From an uncultured Rubrobacteraceae bacterium (lineage in GTDB: Bacteria > Actinomycetota > Rubrobacteria > Rubrobacterales > Rubrobacteraceae): 44,584 nt of DNA. The notes under the pieces were generated by a model, which saw only the letters and a list, made by a program, of their open reading frames with translations, did no database searches and was not told the DNA's origin. Below, one piece after another: positions 25,637 through 44,584 of the stretch. The stretch's first letter is position 1. Each line of letters starts with the position of its first letter. The translations under genes were made by a program, and so were the position numbers. The stretch lies in the NCBI GenBank assembly GCA_902805975.1, contig CADCUT010000049.1:1894-46477 (forward strand). The letters run 5' to 3'.

Positions 25637-25664
25637 TCGAACTTTCTGGCGCGCCCGCGCATCT
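25637..25664 (+). promoter_or_regulatory. ECF-type promoter before the first sigma factor gene
   Basis: TCGAACTTT (25637-25645), 13 nt, GCATCT (25659-25664). The same two blocks with the same spacing occur at 27394 and 29276. Transcription would begin about 40 nt before the GTG at 25711. Confidence 0.75.
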
Positions 25665-25710
25665 TATCTAGCGTGAAGACAGATACGATGCCTATGAGAG
25701 GGGCCGGCGC

Positions 25711-26664
25711 GTGTTGAGAGGACGGGTGCCAAGCGATGCGGATCTCGTCCGGGCGGCGCAGGGGGGGGACGCGACGAGCCTGGGGCTCCTGCTCGAACGC
25801 TACCGGGCTTCGCTGTACGGGCAGGCCCTCGGCATCCTGGGCTACGGACCCCAGGCCGAAGACGCGGTTCACGACGCCTTCGTCGTGGCCCTGCGGAAGA
25901 TAGACGCGGTGCGCGAGCCGGCCGCGGTGGGCGGGTGGCTCCACGCTGTCTTGCGCAACGTCTGCCTGATGCGGTTGAGGACCGGACGGGACGAGGTCCT
26001 CTTCGATGAGGTACGACTCCCCACCCGGGAGGACCCTTCGGAGAGATCGGTCGAGGAGTCCATAGATCAACTGGCGATGCGCGAGTGGGTGTGGACGGCG
26101 CTATCCGAGCTGCCCGAGGTGTTGCGGGTGACGGCGATGTTACGCTACTTCGGCGGTCGCTGCTCTTACGAGGAGATGGCGGCCATCCTGGGAGTGCCGG
26201 TAGGCACGGTGAGGAGCCGGCTCAGCCAGGCCAGGCTAAGGCTGGCCGACGCGCTCCTGGAGACGGCGGGGCTCGCCCACGACGAGGCCCGCCGTCTCCA
26301 GGAGTCCAGCACCCGCTACTTCGGGGCCGCCGCCGAGGAGATAAACCGCGGCCAGGGATACGAACTTCTACTGAACGCCTACTCCGATGCCCCCGCTTGT
26401 TTCCTGGGTGACGGGCAGACCCTGCACGGACGCGGGGTCGTGATCGAGAGCCTTGAGGGTGACCTCGAAGCCGGGGTGAAGCTGCACCCGACGAACGTGC
26501 TGGCGAGCAAGGACATAATCGTCTTGGAGGCCGATTTCGAGAACCCGCGCGACGATCCCTTCCACTGTCCGCCCGCCACGACGCAGGTCCACTTCCAGCG
26601 CGACGGCCTGACGTACCGGGTGCACCTCCACTTCGCGCCGCGCCCGAGGGAGGAGGAAGGCTGA
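25711..26664 (+). CDS. ECF RNA polymerase sigma factor with C-terminal SnoaL-like domain (paralogue 1)
   Basis: 317 residues. Sigma region 2 spans about 10-95 (DADLVRAAQGGDATSLGLLLERYRASL is split across helices, then DAVHDAFVVALRKID), region 4 about 115-170 with the helix-turn-helix SYEEMAAILGVPVGTVRSRLSQAR. Residues about 185-317 form an NTF2/SnoaL-like domain ending in NPRDDPFHCPPATTQVHF. ECF factors with such tails (as in ECF41/56-type groups) are controlled by the tail rather than a classical anti-sigma factor. A GTG and adjacent TTG are possible starts. Preceded by a TCGAACTTT/GCATCT promoter, suggesting autoregulation. The cupin gene follows by 81 nt. Confidence 0.9.
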   Translation: MLRGRVPSDADLVRAAQGGDATSLGLLLERYRASLYGQALGILGYGPQAEDAVHDAFVVALRKIDAVREPAAVGGWLHAVLRNVCLMRLRTGRDEVLFDEVRLPTREDPSERSVEESIDQLAMREWVWTALSELPEVLRVTAMLRYFGGRCSYEEMAAILGVPVGTVRSRLSQARLRLADALLETAGLAHDEARRLQESSTRYFGAAAEEINRGQGYELLLNAYSDAPACFLGDGQTLHGRGVVIESLEGDLEAGVKLHPTNVLASKDIIVLEADFENPRDDPFHCPPATTQVHFQRDGLTYRVHLHFAPRPREEEG

Positions 26665-26745
26665 GAGAGCAACGCTAGACCACGGTTCGGGCGGAAGGAA
26701 TCCGACGGGGCACCGAGCCCCGCCGACCACAAAGGAGCGGATCAG

Positions 26746-27114
26746 ATGCGCGCAAAAAGCGAAGAGATGCCTGTGGCGTTCGAGGGGGGCGGCGTCGTCA
26801 GCCGCCAGGTGCAGTGGGGAGAGATGCAGGTCGCCAGGGAGACCGCCCCCGCCGGCATGGACACCCGCCCAATGTTCAAGGACTTGTCCGGGGACTCCTG
26901 CCAGTGCCCGCACTGGGGGTACATGATCAGGGGCAGGGCACGGGTTATCTACCCGGATCGGGAGGAGGTCCTCCAGGCCGGCGACGCCTACTACCTGGAG
27001 CCGGGCCACAACCTCGTGGTCGAGGAGGCCGGTGAGGTCGTCGAGTTCAGCCCGGCGGGCGAGTATCAAAAGACGATGCAGGCGGTGGCCGAGAACATGC
27101 AGGCCTCCCGGTAA
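26746..27114 (+). CDS. Small cupin-domain protein
   Basis: 122 residues. The central part is a single cupin barrel: MFKDLSGDSCQCPHWGYMIRGRARVIYPDREEVLQAGDAYYLEPGHNLV contains the G-x5-H-x-like first motif (CPHWGYMIRG) and the second G-D-x-x-x-x-P-G-H motif. Metal ligands appear reduced to the His residues of HWG and GHN, and a Cys-x-Cys pair sits next to the first. It may sense a small ligand or metal. ATG follows AAAGGAG by 8 nt. It lies between the two sigma factors and probably shares the transcript of the first. Confidence 0.82.
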   Translation: MRAKSEEMPVAFEGGGVVSRQVQWGEMQVARETAPAGMDTRPMFKDLSGDSCQCPHWGYMIRGRARVIYPDREEVLQAGDAYYLEPGHNLVVEEAGEVVEFSPAGEYQKTMQAVAENMQASR

Positions 27115-27153
27115 GGCCCGATCTGCTAGCTGATGCCCTCGCCGCCAATTCGT

Positions 27154-27171
27154 CCCCGCCAGCAAGCGGGG
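27154..27171. terminator. GC-rich hairpin after the cupin gene
   Basis: CCCCGC (27154-27159) pairs with GCGGGG (27166-27171) around CAGCAA; an alternative pairing uses GGCGGGG at 27171-27177. No T-tract. The remainder of the 350-nt gap to the DUF998 gene holds only the ECF-type promoter. Confidence 0.4.
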
Positions 27172-27393
27172 GCGGGGGTGCCGCGCTGCGATCGCCCCGG
27201 CCTCGCGGACCGTCCGCGCGGCCAAGCTGACGGCAACGTGGCCCTGACTACGCCTTTCCGGATCGAACGCCCCGCTGGGGATAGGTACTTCGGGCGGCGT
27301 CTGGCATGCTCCTCGGCTGTGGCGCGGGGTACCTGGCCGGGATGATCACGGTAGGGGTGAATTCAGAGGCGACGAATATTCTTCGCCTCCCAA

Positions 27394-27421
27394 TCGAACT
27401 TTTCTCGCGCAGGGAGCATCT
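27394..27421 (+). promoter_or_regulatory. ECF-type promoter before the DUF998 gene
   Basis: TCGAACTTT (27394-27402), 13 nt, GCATCT (27416-27421). It overlaps the ATG at 27422, which argues that the true start of the gene is further downstream (27467), leaving a leader of about 37 nt. Confidence 0.75.
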
Positions 27422-27466
27422 ATGCCCCGACGATGCAGGAGAGACGAGAGGGCGGAGGCTGGAGCT

Positions 27467-28168
27467 ATGCAACAGGAGAACACGGGCCAACCGGTACACG
27501 GGGCTCAGGTGACAGAAACACGGGGCGGGCGTGACGGGTCTGCTTCGGGCGCTGTCGGAGGTCGGCGGGGGTCGAACCTCTTCGCCACCGTGGCGCTTGT
27601 CGGCTCGGGGTGCTTCGTGGCGTCCGCGCTGCTGCTACCCGCCGTTTCGGAGTACGGGATAAGGCAGGACTTTATCAGCGAGCTCGCCTTGGGCCGTTAC
27701 GGCTTTGTCCAGACGCTGGCGTTCGTGGCGTTCGGGGTCGGCGCCCTGGCGTTGGCGGCGGGCCTCCGCAAGACGACGAAAGGCTCGTGGGGTTCGCTCG
27801 CCGGGTCCGTCCTCGTCGGCCTGTTCGGTATCGGGGTCCTGCTCGACGCGGTCTTTCCCCTCGATCCAGGTGGGCAGATGGCGACGGTAGCCGGAACCGT
27901 GCACCTCATGGCGGCGCTTGTGGCCTTCGTGTGTATGATCGTGGCGATGTTCGTGTTGTCGAGGACCTTCAAGCAGAGCGCCGGGTGGCGTTCCCTCTGG
28001 TCTGTGTCCCTGGCGCTCGCCTTCCTGGCGCTCGCCGCCTTCTTCCTTCCGAGCGGCGGCGAGTGGGCCGGCCTCTTCCAGCGCGTGTTCGTTGGGATCG
28101 TGATCTCCTGGATGGTCATCGTGGCGACCCGGCTGCGCTCCACGGTACTCCGGCCTACGGTGAGATGA
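27467..28168 (+). CDS. DUF998-type integral membrane protein
   Basis: 233 residues. A polar N-terminus of about 40 residues is followed by six hydrophobic spans (LFATVALVGSGCFVASALLL, VQTLAFVAFGVGALALAAGL, LAGSVLVGLFGIGVLLDAVF, LMAALVAFVCMIVAMFVLS, LWSVSLALAFLALAAFFL, VFVGIVISWMVIVATRL). The pattern, with ISELALGRYG after the first span and FPLDPGG after the third, matches DUF998 proteins of unknown function. ATG 27467 has GGAGG and GGAG just upstream. Its promoter shares the sigma-factor motif, so it may be part of the signalling circuit, for instance as a membrane sensor; that is inference. Confidence 0.82.
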   Translation: MQQENTGQPVHGAQVTETRGGRDGSASGAVGGRRGSNLFATVALVGSGCFVASALLLPAVSEYGIRQDFISELALGRYGFVQTLAFVAFGVGALALAAGLRKTTKGSWGSLAGSVLVGLFGIGVLLDAVFPLDPGGQMATVAGTVHLMAALVAFVCMIVAMFVLSRTFKQSAGWRSLWSVSLALAFLALAAFFLPSGGEWAGLFQRVFVGIVISWMVIVATRLRSTVLRPTVR

Positions 28169-28274
28169 TGGGCCCCGTGGAGCATCGGGCGCCCCATGCT
28201 TACCCTCCACGTTTGCCCACTTGGAACATCTTCTCTACCATGACGGCCCATACAGAATTCGAGGGAGCCGGAAG

Positions 28275-29225
28275 ATGCTAAGGGGACAGGTTGCGGGCGA
28301 TGCGGACCTCGTCCGGGCGGCGCAGGGGGGCGACGCGACGAGCCTGGGGCTCCTGCTCGAACGCTACCGGGCTTCGCTGTACGGCAAGGCCGTCGGCATC
28401 CTGGGCTACGGACCCCAGGCGGAAGACGCCGTTCACGATACCTTCGTGGTGGCCTTGCGAAAGATAGATGCGGTGCGCGAGCCGGCCGCGGTGGGGGGAT
28501 GGTTGCACGCTATCTTGCGGAACGTCTGCCTCATGCGGCTCCGGGCGGGGCAGGGCGAAGTCCTGTCGAACGAGCTGTACGGCGGGGTGGACGGTGATCC
28601 TTCGGACCCGACGGGCGAGGCCGCGATAGAGCAACTGGCGATGCGCGAGTGGGTGTGGACGGCGCTCTCGGAGCTACCTGAAGTGCTGCGGGTAACGGCG
28701 ATGCTGCGCTACTTCGGCAGCTACACCTCGTATGCGGAGATCTCGGCGATCCTCGGGGTCCCCGTCGGTACGGTGCGGAGCCGCCTCGCCCAGGTCAAGG
28801 CCAAGCTGGCCGAAGCGCTGCTGGAGACGACGGGGCTCGCCCACGCCGAGGCCGGCCGTCTCACGGCATCCACCAACCGCTTTTTCTTGGAGCTGTTCGC
28901 CGAGAACAACCGGGCGGAGATCACCCCCGCCAGCATGGACGTCTACTCGAAGGACGCGGAGATCCTCTGGACCGACGGGTCTTCCATTCGCGGGCGCGAA
29001 AACCTGGCCGCTGGTTTCAGGAGCGACCAGGAAGCCGGCGTGAAAATACACCTGACGAACGTGCTGGCGAGCAGGGACATAGTCGTGGTCGAGGCCGATT
29101 TCGAGAACCCACCCGAAGACCCCTTCCACTGCCCGCCAGCCATAACACAGGTGTACTTCTACAGGCGCGGCCGGATCCAACAGATACGCTTCTACTACCC
29201 GGCGCGTCCGAACGGAGAAGACTAG
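28275..29225 (+). CDS. ECF RNA polymerase sigma factor with C-terminal SnoaL-like domain (paralogue 2)
   Basis: 316 residues, collinear with the first sigma factor: the region-2 half differs by only a handful of residues and long stretches are almost identical even at the DNA level (for example 28306-28385 against 25741-25820), while the C-terminal domain has diverged more (NRFFLELFAENNRAEITP, then NPPEDPFHCPPAITQVYF). Region 4 helix-turn-helix: SYAEISAILGVPVGTVRSRLAQ. ATG 28275 follows GAGGGAG by 7 nt; the open frame starts earlier at 28221. Unlike paralogue 1 it has no TCGAACTTT/GCATCT promoter directly upstream; it may be read through from the DUF998 gene 106 nt before it. Confidence 0.9.
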   Translation: MLRGQVAGDADLVRAAQGGDATSLGLLLERYRASLYGKAVGILGYGPQAEDAVHDTFVVALRKIDAVREPAAVGGWLHAILRNVCLMRLRAGQGEVLSNELYGGVDGDPSDPTGEAAIEQLAMREWVWTALSELPEVLRVTAMLRYFGSYTSYAEISAILGVPVGTVRSRLAQVKAKLAEALLETTGLAHAEAGRLTASTNRFFLELFAENNRAEITPASMDVYSKDAEILWTDGSSIRGRENLAAGFRSDQEAGVKIHLTNVLASRDIVVVEADFENPPEDPFHCPPAITQVYFYRRGRIQQIRFYYPARPNGED

Positions 29226-29275
29226 AGGCCAAGCCGGTCTTCAGGTCTGGCAGGTCCGAGCATTTCTCGTCCTGA

Positions 29276-29303
29276 TCGAACTTTTCGTCGCCGTCGCGCA
29301 TCT
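29276..29303 (+). promoter_or_regulatory. ECF-type promoter before the secreted propeller protein gene
   Basis: TCGAACTTT (29276-29284), 13 nt, GCATCT (29298-29303). The leader to ATG 29434 would be about 120 nt. An ATG at 29311 lies 7 nt after the -10 and is in frame, but an N-terminus from there would precede the signal peptide by 41 residues. Confidence 0.75.
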
Positions 29304-29433: not shown

Positions 29434-30819
29434 ATGACGACGTTCTCCACGATCATCAGAACATCGGCGGTCGGAGTGGCGACGGTCCTGGCGCTTGGAC
29501 TGCTGATGCTGACCGTGGGCATAGGCCCCGTCCAGGCCACTTTCCCCGGAGCGAACGGCAAAATCGCATTCATCAAGAGAGACAACGGTGTACAAGGTAT
29601 CTCCACCGTAAACCCTGATGGCAGCGGGCTTACAGATCTCACCGGTCCGCGGGCTCTGGCAGGCGAGCCTGCCTGGTCTCCCGATGGTACGAGGCTTGCT
29701 TTCACGGGTTTCGTAAGCGTCTACACGATGAACGCGGATGGCTCCGGATTGAGACGCCTCACCATAGAGGACTTCAGCGGAGATCCTTCATGGTCCCCGG
29801 ACGGCACGAAGATAGCCTTCATGAGCGATCGTTCCGGGAACGACGAGATCTACACGATGAACGCGGACGGTTCGGGGGTGAGGCGCCTCACCAACGATCC
29901 CGCCGAAGACGGAGGCCCCGACTGGTCCCCGGATGGGACCAAGATCGCCTTCACCAGCAACCGGGATGGGAATCGCGAGATCTACGCCATGAACGCGGAC
30001 GGCACCGACGAGACCAACCTGACTAATTTTTCGGCGGGTGACGACATACATCCTTCCTGGTCGCCGGACGGAACACAGATAGCTTTCTCGGGCGAGGAGA
30101 CGGATGGTGCGGCAATCATCTACACCATGAACGCTAACGGCTCCGGACAGACGCCTCTCACCGGGTCCATCAGGGGCGTCGACTACAGGCCCGACTGGTC
30201 CCCGGATGGGGCCAGGATCGCCTTCGACAGCATTCGGAACGGCGACACCACGATCTACGTCATGAACGCGAACGGCACGGGAGAGGCTATCCTGGCCAAC
30301 GGCCCCGAGTTGGAGATTGGTCCCAGCTGGCAACCCATCCCACCTTGCACCATCGTCGGTACCCAGGGAAATGACAAGCTGCGCGGCTCCGCGGCGAAGG
30401 ATGTTATCTGCGGCCTCGCCGGCGACGACCTCCTCTCCGGGTGGGAAGGTGACGATATCCTTATCGGCGGCAAAGACGACGATACTCTGTACGGGGGACC
30501 TGACAACGACACCCTCAACGGCGGCCCCGGCGCCGATACCGCAAGCTACCTGGGCGCGGCGACCGCGGTTCGAGCCTCCCTCAAGACCAATTTTGCCAAC
30601 GGACAGGGCTCGGACGTCTTTGTGGAAGTAGAGGACCTTACCGGCACGGCCTTCGGGGACGACCTGGAGGGTTCGAACAGGGCAAACACCCTCGAAGGTT
30701 TCGGGGGGCCCGACGTGCTGAGGGTCAGGGACGGTAGGGGCAACGACACGGCGGACGGGGGCGCGGGCTCGGACACCTGCCAAATGGACGCCGGGGATAC
30801 AGCGAGGAGTTGCCCTTAG
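29434..30819 (+). CDS. Secreted TolB-like beta-propeller with RTX-type calcium repeats
   Basis: 461 residues. A signal peptide (1-35, hydrophobic core VGVATVLALGLLMLTVGI, cleavage after VQA) precedes a WD40/TolB-like propeller with five clear blades marked by WSPDGT and MNADGSG motifs (about 40-300). Residues 310-400 carry haemolysin-type glycine-aspartate repeats (GNDKLRGSAAKDVI, AGDDLLSGWEGDD, GGKDDDTLYGGPDNDTLNGGPGAD), which bind calcium, with further repeats at the end. It should be an extracellular or surface sensor or binding protein. ATG 29434 follows GGTAGGAG. Its promoter matches those of the nearby sigma locus, so it is probably a target gene. Confidence 0.88.
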   Translation: MTTFSTIIRTSAVGVATVLALGLLMLTVGIGPVQATFPGANGKIAFIKRDNGVQGISTVNPDGSGLTDLTGPRALAGEPAWSPDGTRLAFTGFVSVYTMNADGSGLRRLTIEDFSGDPSWSPDGTKIAFMSDRSGNDEIYTMNADGSGVRRLTNDPAEDGGPDWSPDGTKIAFTSNRDGNREIYAMNADGTDETNLTNFSAGDDIHPSWSPDGTQIAFSGEETDGAAIIYTMNANGSGQTPLTGSIRGVDYRPDWSPDGARIAFDSIRNGDTTIYVMNANGTGEAILANGPELEIGPSWQPIPPCTIVGTQGNDKLRGSAAKDVICGLAGDDLLSGWEGDDILIGGKDDDTLYGGPDNDTLNGGPGADTASYLGAATAVRASLKTNFANGQGSDVFVEVEDLTGTAFGDDLEGSNRANTLEGFGGPDVLRVRDGRGNDTADGGAGSDTCQMDAGDTARSCP

Positions 30820-43054: not shown

Positions 43055-44584
43055 ATGGAGGTAGACCGTAACAGGTTGGCGGCAGGCATAGAACTCACCG
43101 AGAACGCGGTCGCCGTTCTCAAGAAGCGCTATCTCAAAAAGAACGAGCGCGGGGAGGCGATCGAGGAGCCCATCGACATGTTCCTGCGCGTGGCGGGGAA
43201 CATCGCCGAGGGCGAGTATCGGTTCAAGGAGGGCGAGGAGGCCAAAGCGCTCTACGAGGAGTCCAGGGAGAGGTTCCTCGGGATCATGCTGACCAGGAAG
43301 TTCATGCCGAACTCGCCGACCCTCATGAACGCGGGCCGCGAGCTGCAGCAGCTCTCGGCGTGCTTCGTGCTGCCGGTCGAGGACTCCATAGACGGCATCT
43401 ACGACACCCTCAAGCACCAGGCCATCATCCACAAGAGCGGTGGGGGGACGGGCTTCGGCTTCTCCCGCCTGCGTCCCAAGAACGACCTCGTGCAGAGCAC
43501 GATGGGCGTCTCGAGCGGGCCCGTCTCTTTCATGGCCATCTACGACGCCTCGACGGACAAGATCAAGCAGGGCGGCACCAGGCGCGGGGCGAACATGGGC
43601 ATCCTCAGGGTAGACCACCCGGACGTCGAGGAGTTCATCGAGTGCAAGCGCGAGAACGACCAGATCAACAACTTCAACATCTCGGTCGCCATTACCGACG
43701 AGTTCATGGAGGCCGTCGGGGCCGACCGTGATTTCGAGCTCAAGAACCCGAGGGACGGCCAGGTCATAAAGACCGTTCGCGCGAAGGACCTCTTCCGCAA
43801 GATCGTCGAGGGGGCGTGGCTCAACGGCGAGCCGGGTGTGGTCTTTATAGACAAGATCAACGCCGACAACCCGACGCCGCAGTTCCCCATAGAGGCGACC
43901 AACCCCTGCTCCGAGGCGCACCTGCCCGCGTACGACTCGTGCAACTTAGGGTCGATCAACCTGGAGCGCTTCTATAGGGAAGAGACCGGGGACGTCGACT
44001 GGGACGACCTCAGGGAGACGGTCCACACCGCGATTCGCTTCCTGGACAACGTCATAGAGCAGAACAACTACCCGCTGCCCGAGATCGACGCGATGAGCCG
44101 CGGCAACCGGCGCATCGGCCTCGGCGTGATGGGCTTCGCCGACGTCCTCATAAAGCTCGGCATCACCTACGACTCGGACGAGGGCCTCGCCTTTGCCGAG
44201 AAGGTGATGAAGTTCGTGGACGACGAGGCTTGGGAGGAGAGCCGCAACCTCGCCGAGGAGCGCGGCGTGATGCCGAACTTCGAGGGCTCCCGCCACGAGC
44301 TGCGCGGGGACAAGGTCCGCAACGCGACCGTCACCACCATAGCGCCTACGGGCACGATCTCCATGATCGCCGGCTGCTCTGGCGGCATCGAGCCGCTCTT
44401 CGCGGTCGCCTTCATGCGCCGCCAGGCCGACATGGAGATGCCCGACGTCAACCCCGAGTTCGTGAAGATCGCTAAGGAGCGCGGCTTCTACTCCGAGGAC
44501 CTGATGAAGAAGGTCGCCGAGCACGGCTCCGTGCGCGACGTCGAGGAGGTGCCGGCCGACCTCAGGAGCGTGTGGGTCACCTCG
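43055..44584 (+). CDS. nrdJ: Adenosylcobalamin-dependent ribonucleotide reductase NrdJ (3' end cut off)
   Basis: The frame is open to the right edge, giving about 510 N-terminal residues. Class II features: [25 protein letters not shown], the [17 protein letters not shown] effector/substrate loop, [17 protein letters not shown], the catalytic NPCSEA loop with the following SCNLGSINL, and [21 protein letters not shown]. No N-terminal ATP-cone. It reduces ribonucleotides using vitamin B12. Two starts compete: ATG 43049, 7 nt after a TAGAAT -10 (leaderless), and ATG 43055, 6 nt after GGGAGG (43043-43048). I list the latter. Confidence 0.93.

Follow-up and report, generated by a model that had tools for sequence, protein, structure and literature searches.

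The window analysed here is a stretch of 44,584 nucleotides of contig CADCUT010000049.1 from an uncultured Rubrobacteraceae bacterium (draft genome G000). It carries a locus with two extracytoplasmic function (ECF) sigma factor genes, sigma 1 and sigma 2, together with genes for a cupin, a DUF998 membrane protein, and a propeller protein. A two-block motif, TCGAACTTT-N13-GCATCT, stands 5′ of sigma 1, the DUF998 gene, and the propeller gene, and is most likely the promoter of an ECF sigma subfamily with an NTF2/SnoaL-like tail. The locus is probably a local regulon of this one-piece subfamily, in which the tail would gate the sigma core, the sigma factor and its promoter would be the constant parts, and the target genes would be swapped.

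The promoter motif in the window and the draft genome

The motif is present in three exact copies in the window, at 25637-25664, 27394-27421, and 29276-29303, all on the forward strand. At up to two mismatches the window has no further copy, and at up to three it gains a single site, at 44436 on the reverse strand with three mismatches. The mean number of exact matches in 100 dinucleotide shuffles of the window is 0.00. The base A stands 5′ of all three copies, giving 16 letters that are fixed in the source genome; this A is not conserved in the related genome G004. The spacer sequences of the three copies differ, which argues against a longer stretch having been duplicated recently. A promoter and terminator scan gave nothing useful.

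The draft genome of the source comprises 3,528,030 bases and is 82.15% complete. Its exact motif matches are the same three window sites, with none for the backwards-pattern control, and sites with one or two mismatches are absent. At up to three mismatches there are 69 sites (3 exact and 66 with three mismatches) against 91 in the backwards control. As the three-mismatch sites are fewer than the control sites, the regulon is not visibly wider than the locus. An earlier note on this DNA had described three copies with a 13-nucleotide spacing, had noticed no other in the window, and had considered chance hardly possible. All of this is borne out, the exact sites lie at the locus and not at random positions genome-wide, and the reading of the locus as a compact, locally restricted ECF regulon is well supported.

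The motif and the sigma family in other genomes

The motif travels with the sigma family. The flanks of the family loci were scored against the 15 consensus letters, with 3000 letter-shuffled stretches of 490 bases as a control. A flank with at least 12 of 15 letters is found at 16 of 23 loci, and one with at least 13 at 14 of 23; when the two window sigmas are left out, the counts are 14 and 12 of 21. The shuffled stretches reach 12 in 0.23% of cases, and none of the 3000 reaches 13.

The motif lies 36 to 89 bases 5′ of the sigma start, some starts being approximate, in G004, G008, L062, L063, L064, G426, and G573. It is also upstream of the sigma gene in G800 and, in a diverged form, in G032. 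The loci with a motif before the sigma gene include two from Nitrospirota and one from Bradyrhizobium. A second copy, in the interval between the sigma gene and the next gene, is present in L062, L063, G573, and G800. Six loci of the Streptomyces type (the family of G057, named for its likeness to Streptomyces plasmid matches) have the motif 3′ of the sigma gene only. The spacer is 13 and sometimes 12 bases long.

In eight genomes, together about 41 Mb, CGAACTTT-N12/13-GCATC has 12 matches, none farther than 5 kb from a family sigma gene, and the control has 1. All eight genomes were chosen for having the sigma factor and a known site, so the added value lies in the lack of matches elsewhere and in one new site in G800. 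One to three target sites per genome are visible in this set. The looser pattern TCGAACTT-N12..15-GCATC was scanned in a set of eight genomes and has 10 of its 16 matches at sigma loci and 6 elsewhere, with 7 in the control. Among 396 genomes of the phylum, searched with a spacer of 12-14, ten genomes have a match, G000 and G004 included.

A search of 60 genomes with sigma 1 finds five with matches along most of the tail (G000, G004, G008, G021, and G032), the source genome being one of them. In G008 and G021 the sigma copy is broken or degenerate (L082 7740-8591 and L084 6720-7608, reverse strand), which may be due to decay or to assembly error. G008 retains the promoter motif despite its broken sigma gene. 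A scan of a public genome collection finds relatives of 50-81% identity in a Rubrobacteraceae metagenome-assembled genome (MAG), two Nitrospirota MAGs, and Bradyrhizobium, and a weak one in Amycolatopsis. The tail profile matches 9 of 81 genomes in the family of G057. In the order of the Bradyrhizobium genome it matches 2 of 150, and in the phylum of the Manganitrophaceae genome 2 of 198. The subfamily spans Actinomycetota, Nitrospirota, and Alphaproteobacteria, and its sporadic occurrence across phyla suggests horizontal transfer.

In the tree, the Streptomyces-type clade stands apart from a clade of Rubrobacteraceae, Nitrospirota, and alphaproteobacterial proteins. G426, from the family of G057, sits in the latter clade. 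Sigma 1 groups with the G004 protein, and the placement of sigma 2 is unresolved. The pairing of sigma 1 with G004 indicates that the duplication into sigma 1 and sigma 2 seems older than the split between the source and G004.

Genes and transcription units of the locus

The features of the locus are as follows.

25637-25664, forward strand: predicted promoter copy 1, 5′ of sigma 1; exact match
25711-26664, forward strand: ECF sigma factor 1, with regions 2 and 4 and a modelled C-terminal NTF2/SnoaL-like domain (residues about 187-312)
26746-27114, forward strand: small single-domain cupin (Cupin_2, E 2.8e-4, under the curated cut-off)
27394-27421, forward strand: predicted promoter copy 2, 5′ of the DUF998 gene and sigma 2; exact match
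27467-28168, forward strand: DUF998 membrane protein (DUF998, E 2.5e-31), with about six hydrophobic segments by hydropathy
28275-29225, forward strand: ECF sigma factor 2, a paralogue of sigma 1 with 65-66% identity
29276-29303, forward strand: predicted promoter copy 3, 5′ of the propeller gene; exact match
29434-30819, forward strand: TolB-like beta-propeller with RTX-type calcium-binding repeats, predicted to be secreted

Both sigma factors match Pfam Sigma70_r2 and r4_2 above the cut-off (E 7e-11 and 1.6e-11 in sigma 1) and TIGR02937 above its own, and Pfam gives no match to region 3 in either at E ≤ 1. Both are thus ECF sigma factors, having regions 2 and 4 without region 3. Each extends about 130 residues past these regions.

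The distance from the motif start to the likely gene start is 74 nucleotides for sigma 1, 73 for the DUF998 gene, and 158 for the propeller gene. The longest open reading frame of the DUF998 gene begins at 27422 and abuts the motif, so the ATG at 27467 is the likelier start; its motif distance is close to that of sigma 1. The propeller gene probably begins at 29434. Its Pfam domains, PD40 (E 5.1e-43) and HemolysinCabind (E 2e-18), were found in the longer frame from 29311, and its N-terminus has a signal-like hydrophobic segment at 6-37. Sigma 2 lacks its own motif, the best upstream match being 10 of 15, and is probably on the DUF998 transcript. The cupin is probably cotranscribed with sigma 1. 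Three units are likely: sigma 1 with the cupin, the DUF998 gene with sigma 2, and the propeller gene.

The Pfam matches of the DUF998 protein comprise only DUF998 and a weak MerC, and no anti-sigma domain is found by Pfam in this protein or in the other scanned window neighbours. The source genome has an expanded family of propeller/RTX proteins; its 19 stretches (not genes) that match the propeller are second to the 24 of G002 among the 39 genomes searched.

The C-terminal tail

The sigma 1 tail contains no domain recognised by Pfam. SnoaL_2 is found in 4 of 11 family tails, sigma 1 not among them, with a best E of 7.6e-5, and a PDB search with the tail profile gave nothing credible. The AlphaFold2 model of the tail alone, built from six sequences, has a predicted local distance difference test score (pLDDT) of 80.4 and a predicted template-modelling score of 0.73, and the order of its helices and strands is that of NTF2-like proteins. 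With this model, the best Foldseek match is a ketosteroid-isomerase fold at E 1.6e-4, the one match below 0.001. Template-modelling scores are 0.4-0.6, and SnoaL-like proteins appear at ranks 11 and 21. As modelled, the tail has an NTF2/SnoaL-like fold, in agreement with the SnoaL tails that had been proposed for both sigma factors.

A tail loop, P-x3-P-x2-C-P-P, is conserved, with CPP at 286-288. CPP is present in 11 of 11 aligned tails, in an alignment made outside the [CS]PP filter. It is also present in 18 of 18 proteins of the tree set, a count that is partly built in because this set was gathered by the filter. Of five members outside the filter, L087, L099, and L103 have CPP, L106 has CPA and keeps the cysteine, and the tail of L107 ends before the loop. 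The CPA variant of L106 (G451) coincides with flanks that have no recognisable motif.

Proposed mechanism

The motif fits the general ECF promoter form with AAC at −35 (PMC3426412). The tailed sigma factors, and not another ECF, would read it: core regions 2 and 4 would recognise TCGAACTTT and GCATCT at a spacing of 13, sometimes 12. The fused NTF2/SnoaL-like domain would gate sigma activity, taking the role of a separate anti-sigma factor. By analogy with the fused regulatory domain of ECF41 (PMC3426412), a small molecule most likely acts on the core through the tail, and the cue would most likely be small-molecule binding or modification of the cysteine at the tail loop; a thiol-based step at this conserved residue is a speculation. 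The active sigma factor would transcribe sigma 1 and the cupin, the DUF998 gene and sigma 2, and the gene of the secreted propeller/calcium-repeat protein. The output would probably be an envelope or exoprotein response in the source strain, with target genes newly recruited in each lineage.

The motif 5′ of sigma 1 suggests positive feedback. Such autoregulation, already named in the earlier note, is plausible, as the motif stands 5′ of the sigma gene in several phyla. By sequence, sigma 1 has its own motif before the gene, while sigma 2 and the Streptomyces-type clade do not. A wider proposal is more tentative. It is possible that the family is a hitherto undescribed class of horizontally spread one-component sigma switches whose CPP loop senses a small reactive or hydrophobic molecule, the sigma factor and its promoter forming a portable cassette with lineage-specific outputs; in the source genome these would be the secreted calcium-repeat propeller and a membrane protein.

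Several points weigh against a local, tail-gated regulon. The promoters are predicted ones, and motif sites may be missing because the genome is an 82% draft. The full-length sigma model is poor (pLDDT 50.4), the tail ligand is a presumed one, and either sigma 1 or sigma 2 might read each of the individual promoters. Seven of the 23 loci stay below 12 of 15 (L087, L100, L101, L103, L104, L106, and the broken L084); L100, L101, and L103 have TCGAACTTC or TCCAACTTC plus CCGTC at the corresponding place. The motif follows the sigma gene in Streptomyces-type loci, so autoregulation is not universal. The other eight of the ten matches in the phylum (L090-L097) have no family sigma gene within about 1.5 kb. 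They are taken as chance because the control gave 3, and because one genus (g17) contributes three of the eight as near-identical sites.

The source genome also has 15 ECF-like matches, sigma 1 and sigma 2 included, and for the other 13 the reading of a GAAC promoter is conceivable. An ECF of this kind, such as a SigE/SigM-like one, might thus read the motif, with the tailed sigma genes merely being targets in its cascade. The AAC/GAAC core at −35 is widespread among ECF sigma factors, and one of the promoters targeted by sigmaE in Streptomyces coelicolor has the sequence TCGAACCTC...CATCTA (PMC6767563). However, the promoter of a general ECF cascade should have more sites than the draft genome, empty at one or two mismatches, contains, and the motif accompanies the tailed sigma family in several phyla. 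This makes a cascade under another ECF unlikely.

Relation to known ECF groups

ECF41, known from Bacillus licheniformis and Rhodobacter sphaeroides and including SigJ of M. tuberculosis, is similar in having a fused SnoaL-like tail, a bipartite promoter, and local targets. An adjoining carboxymuconolactone decarboxylase (CMD) gene, sometimes present in ECF41, is also found here in L064 and L111. Of the gene types linked to ECF41 (CMD, oxidoreductase, or epimerase), the family loci show CMD in L064 and L111 and an FAD oxidase in L083, while the scan of seven window genes gave none. In contrast, the ECF41 linker motif WLPEP between regions 2 and 4 (PMC3426412) and the distal motif NPDKL (PMC7730460) are each found in 0 of 18 family proteins. 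The ECF41 promoter, TGTCACA - 16 ± 1 - CGTC 5′ of the sigma or COE gene, differs from TCGAACTTT-N13-GCATCT, TGTCACA itself not having been searched for. The conserved CPP loop and the cupin, DUF998, and propeller neighbours are further differences. Since it lacks WLPEP and NPDKL and differs in its promoter, the family is not assigned to ECF41, although its fused SnoaL domain and local targets point to a similar way of working.

ECF56, ECF205, ECF294, and ECF295 have SnoaL-like tails of 120-150 residues, and the part that these tails play in regulation is described as unresolved (PMC8999054, PMC7730460). The ECF56 member SigG1 of Streptomyces tsukubaensis has an anti-sigma partner and genome-wide targets by chromatin immunoprecipitation sequencing (PMC7730460), whereas the sites here are local. 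The family may equal one of the catalogued but little-studied groups ECF205, ECF294, and ECF295. The matches of sigma 1 or sigma 2 to the NCBIfam models TIGR02960 and NF006089 lie far under the cut-off.

SigE of S. coelicolor resembles the present case in GAAC at −35 and, in the table rows consulted, CGTC or CATC at −10 (PMC6767563). Its regulon comprises many envelope genes, whereas here the sites are local and the fixed −35 block, TCGAACTTT, is longer. In the titles and abstract openings of open-licence literature, no description of the promoter or the signature was found. The earlier note knew of no description of such a set. This holds only with a reservation, as ECF41 with its fused C-terminal regulatory domain, specific promoter, and purely local targets was described in 2012 (PMC3426412); its promoter and signature motifs are different ones.

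What SnoaL-like ECF tails sense is an open question (PMC7730460, PMC8999054). A near-invariant promoter with few target sites would make the subfamily a convenient reporter system in the search for this signal, and also a candidate orthogonal promoter-sigma pair.

Neighbouring genes

The constant core of the system is the sigma factor with its promoter. The five-gene set is not conserved, and the targets are swapped. The nearest relative, G004 (L061), has the order desaturase, small gene, sigma, cupin, argF, as in the source. Its cupin occupies the same position with 91% identity, only about 160 bases separate it from argF, and no other genome shares the cupin. The G004 locus has no DUF998 gene, sigma 2, or propeller gene, and DUF998 gives no match at E ≤ 1e-6 in this draft genome (88% complete). 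The proposal that the five genes form one conserved signalling unit is therefore not supported.

G800 (L152, from the Nitrospirota sample) has three motif copies within 5 kb, at oriented positions 1983, 3030, and 6922. Their targets are the sigma gene, a predicted secreted TPR gene (14 of 15), and a GNAT acetyltransferase gene after a gene that is racemase-like by eye. For the gene after the Streptomyces-type sigma, Pfam identifies an alpha/beta hydrolase in L086 and L088, and inspection by eye suggests one in L102 and L108; the open frame after the sigma gene is not an intact hydrolase in L089 and L099. Further sigma neighbours are a CMD protein (L064 and L111), a methyltransferase (L105), and the FAD oxidase of L083. 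The downstream motif of L064 has a poor −10, and no motif copy lies 5′ of the neighbour gene in L105 and L083.

These neighbourhoods bear on a self-contained envelope unit, in which the DUF998 protein would be a membrane sensor or anti-sigma factor, the propeller an extracellular receptor, and the tails the binding site of a messenger. The genes are linked, their units share the promoter, the DUF998 protein crosses the membrane several times, and the N-terminus of the propeller is signal-like. Such a unit is nevertheless quite improbable, as G004 keeps only the sigma factor and the cupin at this place, other family members adjoin enzymes or a TPR protein, and the Pfam matches of the DUF998 protein include no anti-sigma domain. 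That the three copies are a chance repeat or a duplicated leader sequence can practically be dismissed: the paralogous sigma 1 and sigma 2 might inherit upstream similarity, but sigma 2 has no upstream copy, the copies precede non-paralogous genes with differing spacers, and the motif recurs with the sigma family in other phyla.

The motif was also sought at homologues of the propeller and DUF998 genes, in the best-matching 19 loci from other genomes out of more that were found. The maximum of 12 of 15 letters, which is also the highest score of the shuffles, is reached in 6 of 19 loci compared with 22 of 190 shuffles, slightly more often than in the shuffles. It has no fixed place, and these matches are judged to be chance. 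The CMD-family proteins next to the sigma gene in two alphaproteobacterial loci (L064 7011-7550 and L111 1904-2452) may be secreted, their N-terminus being hydrophobic on inspection by eye.

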